Shown: positions 29,668 through 34,316 of the stretch, piece after piece
Layout of the letters: each line of letters begins with the position of its first letter
Position numbering within the stretch: position 1 is the first letter of the stretch
From: Granulicella sp.
Lineage (GTDB): Bacteria; Acidobacteriota; Terriglobia; Terriglobales; Acidobacteriaceae
NCBI GenBank assembly: GCA_003138795.1
Contig: PLHC01000076.1
Location: 50,382 to 102,987, forward strand
DNA length: 52,606 nt
Reading direction: 5' to 3'
Position numbers and translations under genes: made by a program
Notes under the pieces: model-generated
What the model was told of the DNA's origin: nothing
Database searches by the model: none
The model's input: the letters and a program-made list of their open reading frames with translations, nothing else

Positions 29668-30462
29668 CTAAAATGCGGTGCCAGGTTCATTGCCCAGAAA
29701 GCCGAGCGCGCGGGCGTTGGACTGACGTTGGAGGCGGCGCTCAATGGCATAGCGCAGGCCGAGTATGAGGGCCCCCCACATCGCCCATGCGAGCATATTC
29801 CAAAGCACGGCGGGGACCATGCTGGGGTCGATACCAGAGTCCGACCCGCCACCAAACACCGCCGCCGGATGCTGCGTGCGCCACCAGCGGATCGACATAA
29901 AGCAGATGGGAACGTCGATGGCCGCGAAGATCGCCAGGACCGCGGCAATAACGGCTGTCTGTCCGGTCGCCGAATACCGTCGCACCAGCAGATAGCTGAC
30001 GTATAGCAGCCACAGCAGCAGGTAGGTGGTCATGCGCGCATCCCAGGCCCACCAGATGCCCCAGGCTGCGCGTCCCCAGAGCATGCCCGTTGCAAGGCCA
30101 ATGGTCGCGTAGAGCACCGTCACCTCGGCAGCTGCTAGCGCGAAAGCATCCGCCGCCGCCGCACGCTCGACATTCCGGTTGCGCCAGAATAGGTACAGCA
30201 GCGACGCGCCGCAGTTCAGATACGGGAATATGAAGCTCAGGATCGTGTGCGGCAGGTGGTAGAAAAAGACGCGATACAGGTTACCCATCGTCGCTTCGGT
30301 AGGTGCGGTCATGGCCTTATAGAAGCCAAAGACCAGCATGATGAGAGTCAGGGCAAACCAAGCGAGGGCCCATTTCGGCATAGATCCGGGAGATTTTCGA
30401 ATATTAGTCACCGTCCATGATTTTATCTTGTTGCTGTCCTGTGCAACATCTTCTGGGCCCAC
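29668..30462 (-). CDS. ccmC: Cytochrome c maturation heme-handling protein CcmC
   Basis: A polytopic membrane protein of up to 264 residues with six transmembrane helices and the heme-binding tryptophan-rich motif GIWWAWDARMTTYLLLW. Conserved His residues flank it (YHLP in the first part and a later His in RTQHPAAVF). CcmC presents heme to CcmE in System I cytochrome c maturation. The start is uncertain: a GTG at 30462 shares one base with the ccmB stop (TAGTG), giving 264 residues, and an internal ATG at 30381 would give 237. Neither has a good binding site. It lies between ccmB and ccmD in an overlapping operon. Confidence 0.92.
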   Translation of the reverse strand: MGPEDVAQDSNKIKSWTVTNIRKSPGSMPKWALAWFALTLIMLVFGFYKAMTAPTEATMGNLYRVFFYHLPHTILSFIFPYLNCGASLLYLFWRNRNVERAAAADAFALAAAEVTVLYATIGLATGMLWGRAAWGIWWAWDARMTTYLLLWLLYVSYLLVRRYSATGQTAVIAAVLAIFAAIDVPICFMSIRWWRTQHPAAVFGGGSDSGIDPSMVPAVLWNMLAWAMWGALILGLRYAIERRLQRQSNARALGFLGNEPGTAF

Positions 30463-31142
30463 TAATCGGCGCTAAGAATCGTCTGAAACAACAGGACGCA
30501 TGCGGTCGTGAAAACAACCACGTAGGCGACGAGTACCTTGATCCACAGCGTCGGCTCGAACTCGCCTGTAAGTACTGCCGTGGTGGCCTGTATCATCGCC
30601 AGCAGCGCAGGCATGGAGATGGGCAGCAGCACCAGCGGAAGCAGCGTCTCCCGGTTGCGGGAGCGGAGGCTGAGAGCGGCGAAAAACGTCCCATTCACCA
30701 CGAGCGCCCACGTTCCCAGCGGAAGGATGATGAGCAGTTTCCATGTCTCGCCCAGCGGATGAAGGTTGTAGAAGATCGTGAAGATTGGTGCAAGCACAAC
30801 TTCGACCGCAATCACAAAAAGAAAGTTCGCCAGCGCCTTGCCGACAAACAGCGCGGATGCAGGCGCAGATGAAAGGCGATGCGCATCCAGGACATTGTTG
30901 TTGGTCTCGCGCGCCCAGGACTGATTCAGCGCAGTCATTGCGGCGAAGAGCAGGGCAACCCATAGCAGCCCGCCGCTGATCTGCCGTGTCATCGTTGGGT
31001 AGGACGCCGGGTCAAACGCCATGGCCAGCACCACGACCACCAGCAGCGCGAAGAACAGCATGCCGTTGATCGAGTCCTTCGTGCGCCACTCCAGACGCAG
31101 ATCCTTGCGCAGATGCGTGAGGACGTGCTGCGCGTAGTTCAT
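30462..31142 (-). CDS. ccmB: Heme exporter/ABC permease CcmB
   Basis: A 226-residue six-helix membrane protein. LRKDLRLEWRTKDSINGMLFF at the N-terminus and LNQSWARETNNN..LSSAP in the first cytoplasmic loop are characteristic of CcmB, as is LPLVLLPISMPALLAMIQAT. It forms the ABC complex with CcmA and CcmC for cytochrome c maturation. Its ATG overlaps the stop of the ybaK gene by four bases (ATGA), so it is translationally coupled to an unrelated deacylase gene. Confidence 0.95.
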   Translation of the reverse strand: MNYAQHVLTHLRKDLRLEWRTKDSINGMLFFALLVVVVLAMAFDPASYPTMTRQISGGLLWVALLFAAMTALNQSWARETNNNVLDAHRLSSAPASALFVGKALANFLFVIAVEVVLAPIFTIFYNLHPLGETWKLLIILPLGTWALVVNGTFFAALSLRSRNRETLLPLVLLPISMPALLAMIQATTAVLTGEFEPTLWIKVLVAYVVVFTTACVLLFQTILSAD

Positions 31143-31660
31143 GCTTGGCCTCCGGGGATGGAAGTCTTGGTAAGGTCCGCGAGTTTCGCGTTCGTCGCGC
31201 GCAGATAATCTGTTGGCGCAAGTACGATCTGCAATCCGCGTTGTCCGGCCGAGACCGAGATGACGTCAAACAACTCAATGGCCTCGTCTGCAAAAGCAGG
31301 GAAGGGCTTCTTTGCGGCGAGCACGGTGACACCGCCCCGGATATATCCGGTGAGCGGTTCGACGTCCTTCAGCGCTACAAGTTCGACCTTGCGCGTGCCC
31401 GCGACCGCAGCCAACTTCTTCAGGTCGAGTTCGGAGTCTCCCGGCACAACCGCGAACAGATGCTCGCCTTCGGCTGTCTGTGTGACCAGCGTCTTGAAGA
31501 CCTGCTCTGCGGGTAAACCGATTTTGCGAGCGCCCGAGACCGCCGTAAGATCGTCCGGATCGACCTCGTACGATCGCAGTTCATAATGAATGCCGAGAGC
31601 GTCGAGTTGCCGTACCGCGTTCGTCTTGCCTGGGTGGATTGTCTTGCCTGCGTGGCTCAT
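31139..31660 (-). CDS. ybaK: Cys-tRNA(Pro)/Cys-tRNA(Cys) deacylase YbaK
   Basis: A 173-residue YbaK/EbsC-type trans-editing protein that hydrolyses Cys wrongly loaded on tRNA-Pro. KTNAVRQLDALGIHYELRSYEVD starts the domain. The catalytic Lys region is AEQVFKTLVTQ, and the C-terminal GYIRGGVTVLAAKKPFPAFAD and SVSAGQRGLQIVLAP segments are typical. It is inserted between ccmA and ccmB, with ATGA overlaps on both sides (31657-31660 and 31139-31142). A functional link between Cys handling and heme attachment to Cys residues is conceivable but unproven. Confidence 0.93.
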   Translation of the reverse strand: MSHAGKTIHPGKTNAVRQLDALGIHYELRSYEVDPDDLTAVSGARKIGLPAEQVFKTLVTQTAEGEHLFAVVPGDSELDLKKLAAVAGTRKVELVALKDVEPLTGYIRGGVTVLAAKKPFPAFADEAIELFDVISVSAGQRGLQIVLAPTDYLRATNAKLADLTKTSIPGGQA

Positions 31661-32391
31661 GAAGCAGCGGTTCCAATCTGCGACACAAGCCGCCCCTCGC
31701 GCAGGGTAATGGTGGTCTGCGCGAGCGGTCGCGCCAGCTCGGCCTGGTGTGTCGTCAGCATCAGCGTGCGAGCCAGTCCATTGCTTCCAGGCTGCGCCAC
31801 ATACGTCAGCAGCCGCTCGATCATGCTCTGCGCCGAGCCGACATCAAGATTGGAGAAGGGTTCGTCGAGCAGCAGCAGATCGGGCTCCGATAGCAGCACC
31901 CGGGCCAGGGAGGCTCGCTGCCGCATACCCTGCGAGTATTCGCCCAAGCGCCGCGAATTCGTCGGCTCGAGGCCGACCTCGAGCAACGCCGCGGCTGCTT
32001 TTTGTTCGAGTACGCCGCGTCCTTCGCCGCCTTTGTGCAGGCTGCCAAAATATGTCAGGTTTTCAAGCCCCGTAAGCTCGTCGTAAAGCATCGTCGCGTG
32101 GCTCATATAGGCAACGCGTCCGCGCTGGTCCTTCGGGCCTTCGCCGAATATCGCGACGCTGCCGTAACTTGGCGAGGTAAGACCGGCGACCAGCTTCAGC
32201 ATGGTCGATTTGCCTGCGCCATTCTCGCCCAGCATCACCACACTTGAGCCGGCAGCCAGCGTGACGGAGACCTCACGCAACGCGACGAAGCTGCCATACA
32301 GCCGCGAAACGCGGGTCAACTCTACAGCTGGCGCCGCAAGGGCAGTAGATGTCTCAGCGGCTTCGGCTCGGAGGTCGTTGGTTGTCAGCAT
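31657..32391 (-). CDS. ccmA: Cytochrome c maturation ABC ATPase CcmA
   Basis: A ~244-residue ABC-type ATPase. Walker A is GENGAGKST (about 55-63), the signature is EYSQGMRQR, and Walker B is LLLLDEPFSNLD. The short helical region and single-domain size fit CcmA, and its partner ccmB lies in the same operon. It would power heme-CcmE release. The frame opens at an ATG at 32430, but the internal ATG at 32391 is preferred because the additional residues are not family-like; AGGA sits too close to be convincing for either start. It is the first gene of the ccm operon and is divergent from the SAM-riboswitch gene. Confidence 0.92.
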   Translation of the reverse strand: MLTTNDLRAEAAETSTALAAPAVELTRVSRLYGSFVALREVSVTLAAGSSVVMLGENGAGKSTMLKLVAGLTSPSYGSVAIFGEGPKDQRGRVAYMSHATMLYDELTGLENLTYFGSLHKGGEGRGVLEQKAAAALLEVGLEPTNSRRLGEYSQGMRQRASLARVLLSEPDLLLLDEPFSNLDVGSAQSMIERLLTYVAQPGSNGLARTLMLTTHQAELARPLAQTTITLREGRLVSQIGTAAS

Positions 32392-32510
32392 ATCCTGTAA
32401 GTGAGTATAGAGCCACGTCCGCCGTCGCATGCTGCTGTGGAAAGCATGGTTGCAAACTCCGGGGTTCGGTGATAAAAGTTAAAGTATTCCTCTCGCTACG
32501 GCGGGTCGAA

Positions 32511-32611
32511 TTTCATGCAGAGTGGTTGAGGGACGAGCCCTGTGACGCCACGACAACCGGACAGAACAGAGTACCGGTGTCAACTCTCTCCTGGCGACAG
32601 GGTACATGAGA
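32511..32611 (+). ncRNA. SAM riboswitch (S-box, SAM-I/IV clan)
   Basis: The S-box architecture can be drawn by hand. P1 pairs TTTCATG (32511-32517) with CATGAGA (32605-32611). The conserved core AGTGGTTGAGGGACGAGCCC and GACGCC..CGACAACC follows. P3 pairs ACCGG (32556-32560) with CCGGT (32574-32578). P4 is CCTG-GCGA-CAGG (32590-32601), capped by a GNRA loop. SAM binding normally turns the downstream gene off. Between the aptamer and the ATG at 32728 there is a GAGAG/CTCTC hairpin (32681-32693) that may act as expression platform, probably at translation because no U-tract is visible. Confidence 0.88.
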
Positions 32612-32727
32612 TTCGGTGGAAGCAGACCCGTATCTGAGGCTGTACTCCACGACTCTCTGTACCCCCCTTCCAGATCAATAGAGAGCGGCTCTCAGGACCA
32701 GGACCCTTCGACCATCGGAGTCGAACA

Positions 32728-34026
32728 ATGGTTTCTTCTTGTACGAAGTATGAGCTGCGCTGCAACGAATGCGGCAAAAGCTATGGCAATCAGCCGCTTT
32801 CGGCTTGCGCGGATTGCCTCGCCCCGCTCGAAGTTCAATACGATTTGGAGTCCGTTCGCGGCCGCTTCACACGCGAAACCATTGCTGCGGGGCCAGCCAA
32901 CATCTGGCGCTACAAAGAACTCCTGCCGATCCCCGAGGGCTTTCTGCCCGACCTGCCTGTGGGCTTCACGCCGCTGGTGCGCGCAAAGAACCTCGGCAAG
33001 CGCATTGGCGCGGATAATCTCTACGTGAAAAACGACGCTGTCTGCTTCCCGACGCTCAGCTTCAAAGACCGGGTCGTCGCGGTCGCGCTGGCTAATGCGC
33101 AGGCCTTTGGTTTCACGACGGTCGGTTGCTCCTCGACCGGCAATCTGGCCAACTCCACCGCAGCGCAGGCGGCGCGTCTCGGCCTCAAGGCTTGCATCCT
33201 GGTGCCCGCCGACCTCGAAGCTGCAAAGATCCTCAATACCCAGGTCTACGGCGCGCGCCTGGTGCGCATCGATGGCAACTACGACCACGTCAACCGCCTC
33301 TGCACACAGATCGCCGACGAGTACAACTGGGGCTTCGTGAACGTGAATCTTCGCCCCTACTACGCCGAGGGTTCGAAGACCGTCGGCTACGAGATCGCCG
33401 AGCAACTCGGCTGGCGTCTGCCCGACAACATCGTCTGCCCCATGGCCGGCGGCAGCCTCATCCGCAAGATTCGCAAGGCGTTCAAGGAACTCATCGCCCT
33501 CGGCCTCGTCGAGCCCAAGGAGGTGCGCTTCTTTGGAGCGCAGGCCACCGGCTGCTCGCCCATCTCGCACGCCGTCAAGAACGGCTGGGACTACATCGAG
33601 CCGCAGCGTCCAAACACCATCGCTCGCTCGCTCGCCATCGGCAATCCCGCCGACGGTCCTGCGGCAGCCAAGATGATTCAGGAGACCGGCGGCTGGGCTG
33701 AGGATGTGTCTGATGTAGAGCTTGTGTCGGGCATTCAAGAACTCGCCGAGACCGAGGGCATCTTCACCGAGACCGCGGGCGGTGTTACCACCGCCGTAGC
33801 CGCCCGGCTGTACTCGCAGGGGCGCATCTCGCGCGACGAGACCACCGTCGTTTGCATCACCGGCAACGGCCTCAAGACCACCGACGCGCTGGAGGGCCGC
33901 TTCGCCACCGAGCGCGCCGTCAAGCCAAAACTCGCAGCCTTCGACGAGTACATCCGCGCGGTCGACGGGAAGCTTATCGGAGTGAAAGAAGATGCCGAGC
34001 TGGTGCTCGCAGGAGGCCCACGTTGA
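32728..34026 (+). CDS. thrC: Threonine synthase-family PLP enzyme (possible homocysteine-forming enzyme)
   Basis: A 432-residue fold-type II PLP enzyme. An N-terminal zinc ribbon is visible (Cys12, Cys15, Cys27, Cys30). The Schiff-base Lys113 sits in PTLSFKDR, and SSTGNLANS and the Gly-rich phosphate loop MAGGSL are in place. The canonical reaction is O-phosphohomoserine to threonine. The setting is odd for that: a SAM riboswitch lies upstream and a ThiS/MoaD-type carrier overlaps its stop. SAM control suggests methionine synthesis, so sulfhydrylation of phosphohomoserine with carrier-bound sulfide is a possible alternative (inference). CGGAG at 32715-32719 precedes the ATG. Confidence 0.88.
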   Translation: MVSSCTKYELRCNECGKSYGNQPLSACADCLAPLEVQYDLESVRGRFTRETIAAGPANIWRYKELLPIPEGFLPDLPVGFTPLVRAKNLGKRIGADNLYVKNDAVCFPTLSFKDRVVAVALANAQAFGFTTVGCSSTGNLANSTAAQAARLGLKACILVPADLEAAKILNTQVYGARLVRIDGNYDHVNRLCTQIADEYNWGFVNVNLRPYYAEGSKTVGYEIAEQLGWRLPDNIVCPMAGGSLIRKIRKAFKELIALGLVEPKEVRFFGAQATGCSPISHAVKNGWDYIEPQRPNTIARSLAIGNPADGPAAAKMIQETGGWAEDVSDVELVSGIQELAETEGIFTETAGGVTTAVAARLYSQGRISRDETTVVCITGNGLKTTDALEGRFATERAVKPKLAAFDEYIRAVDGKLIGVKEDAELVLAGGPR

Positions 34027-34316
34027 GCGTGAAGATCGTGTTACCCACCGCCCTGGCTCGCCACACCGATGGCCAGAAGTCGTTTGAGTCCGAGGCCGGC
34101 AATCTCCCCGGGCTGCTCGCAGAGTTCGACACGAAGTTTCCCGCGCTCGCCAAGAACGTGAGAGATGAGAACGGCAAACTGCGCCGCTTCGTCAATGTCT
34201 ACGTCAACGACGAGGACATCCGTTTCCTCGGCGGCGACACGCACCAGTTTGAAGACGGCGACGAGGTCATGCTCATCCCCTCAATCGCCGGCGGGTGCTG
34301 CGCGGACGGCGAGTAG
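34023..34316 (+). CDS. ThiS/MoaD-family sulfur-carrier protein with masked Gly-Gly tail
   Basis: A 97-residue beta-grasp protein: KIVLPTALARH is strand 1, RRFVNVYVNDEDIRFLGGD is the middle, and GDEVMLIPSIAGG is the conserved C-terminal strand. Active carriers end in Gly-Gly, which is adenylated and thiocarboxylated. Here Gly-Gly is followed by CCADGE, so it would need trimming by a JAMM-type protease, as known for QbsE and HcyS. The start is TTG at 34023, overlapping the preceding stop (TTGA), with AGGAGG at 34011-34016. The tight coupling implies that it serves the threonine-synthase-like enzyme. No JAMM, E1-like or sulfurtransferase gene is in the window. Confidence 0.85.
   Translation: MSVKIVLPTALARHTDGQKSFESEAGNLPGLLAEFDTKFPALAKNVRDENGKLRRFVNVYVNDEDIRFLGGDTHQFEDGDEVMLIPSIAGGCCADGE

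Follow-up and report, generated by a model that had tools for sequence, protein, structure and literature searches.

In a Granulicella sp. contig (PLHC01000076.1) we analysed a stretch of 52,606 nucleotides, hereafter the window, which contains a two-gene operon behind a SAM-I riboswitch. We read this with high confidence as a MetM/MetO operon, making homocysteine from O-phosphohomoserine with sulfur delivered by a carrier protein. The reading is built on the riboswitch match, the two genes, their orthology to known genes, a gene order conserved among relatives and the presence of partner genes elsewhere in the genome. The mechanism has already been published for Streptomyces (2024), and the window looks like a further member of that system rather than a new pathway. 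Four points are added here: SAM-I is tied to metM in a further large clade, a SAM-II-like element takes the place of SAM-I in some relatives, metYX is present alongside the operon, and most carriers of the clade are tailed, presumably as pro-carriers. Prior reports of these were not found in the open-licence literature, outside which the 2024 Streptomyces paper lies and in which tails and coexistence were not specific search targets.

In the proposed pathway, O-phosphohomoserine would be made by ThrB, while the MetO precursor (GG-CCADGE) would lose the residues after its Gly-Gly, probably to the JAMM peptidase encoded in a cysM-JAMM-CysO-E1 cluster, and then be adenylated and thiocarboxylated by the MoeB/MoeZ-type E1 of that cluster, which carries a rhodanese domain. 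MetM would swap the phosphate for the MetO-borne sulfur to yield homocysteine, to be methylated by MetH to methionine and passed on to SAM. Binding of SAM by the aptamer would, in this genus, probably favour a hairpin that hides the Shine-Dalgarno sequence of metM.

The probable metM-metO operon and its leader

The SAM-I (S-box) aptamer is located at positions 32510-32612 of the forward strand, where the full RF00162 model matched with 69.7 bits (gathering threshold 44.4; E = 2.7e-14) in a covariance model search with cmscan. It lies upstream of a methionine/SAM gene, and RF00162 was the sole Rfam family above gathering in the window. In the whole genome, a 3.14-Mb assembly of 172 contigs that is 94.6% complete, only the window copy was found among the 150 of 223 candidates that were scored.

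The downstream gene, metM (32728-34026, forward strand), is a 432-aa open reading frame with a match to PALP (PF00291, E = 8.1e-69). It encodes a PLP enzyme of the threonine-synthase fold, predicted from profile matches and tree placement to be an O-phosphohomoserine-dependent homocysteine synthase. The second gene, metO (34023-34316, forward strand), is a 97-aa open reading frame for a sulfur carrier of the ThiS/CysO fold (PF02597, E = 3e-11). With a TTG start at 34023 it shares 4 nt with the end of metM, an alternative GTG start is located at 34029, and an AGGAGG sequence read by eye at 34011-34016 precedes both. The S-box aptamer, the threonine-synthase-family enzyme and the overlapping ThiS-like carrier had all been listed in the initial annotation, and each was confirmed by its family match.

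The leader as a whole folded more stably than 200 shuffled versions (z = -2.54), and a terminator scan of it returned no site. The Shine-Dalgarno sequence of metM, GGAG at 32717-32720, is contained in a hairpin at 32707-32725 (forward strand), which we examined in an alignment of 14 genus loci (11 of them distinct), the remaining genus loci being left out as hard to align. In this alignment 86.4% of the cells were paired, a value reached by 6 of 500 shuffles, and the covariation was 0.391, which no shuffle out of 500 reached and which compares with at most 0.161 for slid versions of the hairpin. Two of the five measures were within the range of chance, namely the 3 pairs changed on both sides (115 of 500 shuffles as high) and the 7 further pair types (319 of 500). 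The hairpin is a candidate translational expression platform, and we infer that control of metM is likely at the level of translation.

A possible alternative hairpin at 32600-32664 (forward strand), which uses the 3' strand of aptamer helix P1, was seen in the minimum free energy fold of the part after the aptamer (32600-32750). The stability of this fold was modest, with a z score of -1.51 and 12 of 200 shuffles equally stable; the hairpin is possibly a candidate for the SAM-free state.

SAM riboswitches at metM in relatives

To place the operon among its relatives, we searched the window genome together with 60 others. A close MetM (at least 56% identity) was present in 50 of the 61 genomes and RF00162 in 42, with one copy in each and all 42 at metM. 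None of the 11 genomes without MetM yielded a copy in this search, which used stricter filters with 51 candidates scored per genome, such that weak copies may be missed. The match was located directly upstream within the metM locus in 41 genomes (20/20, 16/20 and 5/10 loci in three batches). In the remaining one, G048, metM has just 37 nt of upstream sequence on its contig and RF00162 was found on a different contig, 210 nt away from its end.

The other eight metM loci had no SAM-I match. Two of these have only 0 and 86 nt upstream. Four of the six others, all with more than 100 nt upstream, contain a SAM-II-like element, which brings the loci with either a SAM-I match or a SAM-II-like element to 46 of 50. 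The last two are L040 and L045. In L045 no riboswitch was found with Rfam, RF00521 included, or with our SAM-II-like model. L040 (G023:C116) has 257 nt upstream of metM, in which the 3' end of the aptamer is kept and preceded by unrelated sequence near the contig end, which points either to loss of the switch or to a join made in assembly.

The SAM-II-like elements are located upstream of metM as tandem pairs in L060 (1747-1819 and 1868-1941) and L063 (1718-1791 and 1843-1904) and as single copies in L055 (1840-1912) and L043 (1276-1346). The best match to RF00521 (SAM_alpha, SAM-II) at these loci scored 34.6 bits and four others 23.3-25.7 bits, all below the gathering threshold of 36, for which reason we call them SAM-II-like. 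Five copies had 37 of 65 columns in common. A model made from them recovered the held-out sixth copy, the second of the L063 tandem, with E = 3e-9, and otherwise matched nothing up to E = 1 in 367,056 and 486,433 bases, the behaviour of a conserved element. When six loci were searched again up to E = 10, a single match of 9.7 bits was obtained, downstream in L014. The element is nearly invariant, so covariation is uninformative about its pairs. A terminator scan nearby returned four sites in L063 (0.6 in shuffles), which is clearly beyond chance, and one site each in L060 (0.4) and L043 (0.5), which is not clearly so; none was reported near the L055 element, where one hairpin was apparent by eye.

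At the metM operon of these relatives a SAM-II-like element stands in place of SAM-I. Two types of SAM riboswitch at one operon would constitute independent evidence for a role in methionine synthesis outside Streptomyces.

We also examined an actinomycete sample of 81 loci, consisting of the best 80 of at least 575 matches in a profile scan and a Nonomuraea record. RF00162 was present just upstream of metM in all 20 scan loci tested out of the 80, and in Nonomuraea. According to PMC12172450, Hasebe et al. identified MetM as a homocysteine synthase in Streptomyces, and the metM gene of S. albulus has a SAM riboswitch upstream. In these respects, as described there, the Streptomyces system resembles the window, a threonine-synthase-like homocysteine synthase behind a SAM riboswitch; it differs from the four more distant relatives of the window in which the switch is SAM-II-like.

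Carrier and enzyme families

The carrier gene follows metM in 49 of the 50 clade loci, the window's included, in 78 of the 80 actinomycete scan loci (the other two end 69 and 73 nt past metM) and in Nonomuraea, so that the actinomycete loci examined share this arrangement with the window. Together with the 41 genomes in which RF00162 lies upstream, this shows that the order riboswitch-thrC-thiS, which the initial annotation proposed to look for, recurs in relatives. All 128 carriers found have an AGG or SGG sequence within their last 30 residues. In the window genome MetO and CysO share 39% identity, and a tree of 29 MetO and 15 CysO rows separated the two into distinct groups (99/97), placing MetO apart from the carrier of the cysM-JAMM-E1 cluster. 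The CysO rows of this tree were drawn from part of 21 JAMM regions, and one of them is an in-frame E1 fusion.

These observations bear on the nature of the sulfur donor. MetM might make homocysteine from free sulfide, as MetY-type enzymes do, with MetO as an accessory only, for example a carrier for tRNA thiolation or protein conjugation; the role of the enzyme would be the same and only the donor would differ. MetO does match SAMP1 and Urm1-like models, weakly and under their cut-offs. We consider this improbable, given the near-constant adjacency of the carrier gene to metM in both the clade and the actinomycetes and the separation of the MetO group from CysO. The 2024 study of Hasebe et al. 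(Appl Environ Microbiol 90:e01247-24) is also said to have MetM using O-phosphohomoserine together with thiocarboxylated MetO, MetO being the sulfur donor.

The enzyme itself scores as a threonine synthase. It obtained 281 bits against the TIGR00260 model for thrC (cut-off 167) and 293 bits against PRK08197, narrowly under the cut-off of 303, and the solved chains nearest to it are threonine synthases. In a tree of 62 proteins, however, 23 clade MetM and 16 actinomycete MetM sequences formed one group (100/100), outside which fell 23 threonine-synthase-like paralogues from the same genomes. Within the group, the clade sequences did not separate as a single group from the actinomycete ones, and the S. 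albulus MetM was not among the sequences compared. For the comparison of residues, we used 39 of 131 MetM and 11 of the 23 paralogues; at 24 positions, a residue shared by 38 or more of the 39 MetM differed from the one shared by 10 or more of the 11 ThrC. The SFKDR motif, which we take to contain the PLP lysine, was retained in all 131 MetM.

A Streptomyces protein whose locus has both a SAM-I riboswitch and a carrier shares 54% identity with the window enzyme. This identity and the common tree group suggest that the chemistry of the window enzyme is that of MetM/MetO. The claim of the initial annotation, that carrier-bound sulfur replaces the phosphate of phosphohomoserine to give homocysteine under repression by SAM, is on these grounds very probably right.

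Could the gene instead encode a second threonine synthase, perhaps also active as a threonine deaminase, that is situated by chance behind a SAM riboswitch and beside an unrelated carrier? The profile score and the solved chains are compatible with this, as is a cyanobacterial homologue for which PMC12172450 gives 51.6% identity to MetM, a metO-like neighbour (annotated as a putative sulfur carrier, 47.25% similar to S. albulus metO) and no SAM riboswitch. In vitro that protein was reported to have both threonine synthase and threonine deaminase activity, and sulfide led to no more than an unidentified peak close to methionine; methionine levels in cells did not go up (PMC12172450). The MetM family may vary or be promiscuous. 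Against this stand the separate tree group with its diagnostic residues, the recurrence of both carrier and SAM riboswitch at metM loci, and a second thrC of the window genome, which adjoins thrB (L073). The gene is thus not the only thrC, as had been considered at the outset, and threonine need not depend on MetM. A plain second thrC was ruled out by the tree group and the separate thrC-thrB pair, and a chance association of the kind described is very unlikely. Genes that score as a second threonine synthase in these genomes are better read as methionine genes.

In five genomes (G041, G042, G043, G044 and G049) a thrC-type paralogue is located within about 1.5 kb of metM in divergent orientation, and all of these except that of G043 grouped with true thrC in the tree.

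That the pair is a MetO-dependent cysteine synthase of the CysM/CysO kind, with O-phosphoserine as acceptor, is hardly credible: among solved chains 3dwg_C, which we take to be CysO in complex with CysM, comes closest to MetO, and the identity to CysO is as given above, but a distinct CysM-like gene is present in the genome together with a carrier, a JAMM and an E1 of its own, MetM is closest to threonine synthase and not to CysM, and control by SAM suits methionine better than cysteine.

The CysM/CysO system of Mycobacterium tuberculosis works with Mec+ and MoeZ. It resembles the window pair, read as MetM/MetO, in combining a PLP enzyme with a GG-bearing carrier activated by an E1, and a comparable cysM-JAMM-CysO-E1 set is present in the window genome, whereas the window pair belongs to another enzyme family and another carrier group and is SAM-regulated. 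For M. tuberculosis, PMC6225789 describes the use of thiocarboxylates for cysteine; it also cites a protein-thiocarboxylate route to methionine, with which the window pair would share a carrier-based path to this amino acid.

Predicted carrier maturation and other homocysteine routes

The C-terminus of the window MetO (34290-34313, forward strand) reads IPSIAGG-CCADGE, with the Gly-Gly at 34290-34295 followed by the tail CCADGE at 34296-34313. The Gly-Gly is therefore not terminal, a feature missed in the first description of the gene. Only 4 of the 49 clade carriers, the window's included, end at GG and 45 have 1-20 more residues; of the 78 actinomycete carriers, 52 stop at GG and the other 26 continue for 1-3 residues. 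The tail of 6 residues in the window thus compares with 0-3 in the actinomycetes. Tails, in many cases containing cysteines, were likewise present on all 14 unfused clade CysO examined (GGCCR, GGTPSAGCCCR, GGADCLCCCL). In one locus, L214 (G051:C55), CysO is seemingly fused in frame to E1 in a reading frame of 476 aa, which would place the Gly-Gly inside the chain.

In this carrier family the thiocarboxylate forms on the terminal glycine, and since MetO extends past its Gly-Gly, trimming is expected. We predict that a protease removes the MetO tail before thiocarboxylation. Trimming of a residue after the GG is reportedly needed also in the study of the protein-thiocarboxylate methionine route, which is said to involve a MetY-type enzyme with O-acetylhomoserine and not one of the threonine-synthase type.

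The JAMM and E1-like genes sought in the genome were found in a cysM-JAMM-CysO-E1/rhodanese cluster (G000:C44; L072:5903-9191), beside homoserine dehydrogenase and unlinked to metM. The E1 is MoeB/MoeZ-like with a rhodanese domain. The CysM-like enzyme, the carrier and the JAMM matched NCBIfam models under their cut-offs, and the JAMM passed PF14464. The CysO of the cluster ends GG-CCR and has GG-CC in common with MetO. This cluster could supply both the protease and the activating enzyme for MetO, and its JAMM peptidase, being encoded between CysM and CysO, is a natural candidate for the trimming. JAMM is nearly universal (58 of 61 genomes) and can for this reason not be tied to the carrier tails.

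A wider model, which we put forward tentatively and hold to be rather less likely than the operon reading itself, even somewhat doubtful, is that MetO and CysO of the clade are both tailed pro-carriers matured by one JAMM and one E1/rhodanese protein. They would then form a single sulfur hub with a cysteine and a methionine arm, in which SAM gates only the methionine arm through two riboswitch classes that replace each other at the same operon. The tailed carriers lead to a testable prediction, namely that maturation is shared with cysteine synthesis.

Unlike what is described for Streptomyces MetM/MetO, a separate metY-metX pair coexists in the window genome. Both genes had been proposed for a search and were found adjoining, MetY above the TIGR01326 cut-off and MetX above that of PRK00175 and below that of TIGR01392. 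The suggestion that a conventional pathway might operate under a SAM riboswitch of its own held for the genes only: the metY-metX locus, with 1.46 kb of upstream sequence included, had no Rfam match above gathering. MetM may accordingly be one of two homocysteine routes in this genome, which also encodes a CGS/CGL-like enzyme (L008) that could in principle use phosphohomoserine.

To compare genomes with and without MetM, we counted MetX above a line of our own at 300 bits, which 13 genomes passed; none, controls included, passed the TIGR01392 cut-off of 500. MetA was present in 5 of the 61 genomes searched. A MetX/MetA-type gene was found in 12 of the 50 MetM genomes and in 6 of the 11 others (Fisher p = 0.067, a negative association short of significance), and among the 42 near-complete genomes in 7/37 and 3/5, respectively (p = 0.078). 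At these thresholds, 38 of the 50 MetM genomes, some of them incomplete, had no MetX or MetA, and in them MetM is the one path to homocysteine that the searches recognised, which is not the case in the window genome. Annotation could wrongly call methionine auxotrophy in such genomes.

Two other explanations for the missing genes were tried and rejected. Weak MetX hits were considered as acyltransferases, and in 20 loci fetched all 10 proteins scanned had their best match to PRK07581 or PRK06489, models of other hydrolases. A DUF39/NIL-ferredoxin route, an alternative homocysteine synthesis according to PMC5764234, shares its product with the window pair; as a hidden route of the clade it was dismissed, with PF01837 in 0 of the 61 genomes.

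MetH is present in the window genome as a single frame of 1174 aa. In at least 5 of the 50 MetM genomes (G005, G008, G011, G016 and G018), metH precedes the metM riboswitch by 0.2-1.2 kb and shares its strand. In many genus relatives (G001-G009, G013-G015 and others), the MetH matches were divided over two frames, the N-terminal part measuring about 360-420 aa and the C-terminal part about 900-990 aa. In the window, the region upstream of the metM leader (29668-32430, reverse strand) contains divergently oriented genes, among which profile scans covered those for a YbaK Cys-tRNA(Pro) deacylase and the ABC ATPase; apart from YbaK, they presumably encode cytochrome c maturation transport proteins.
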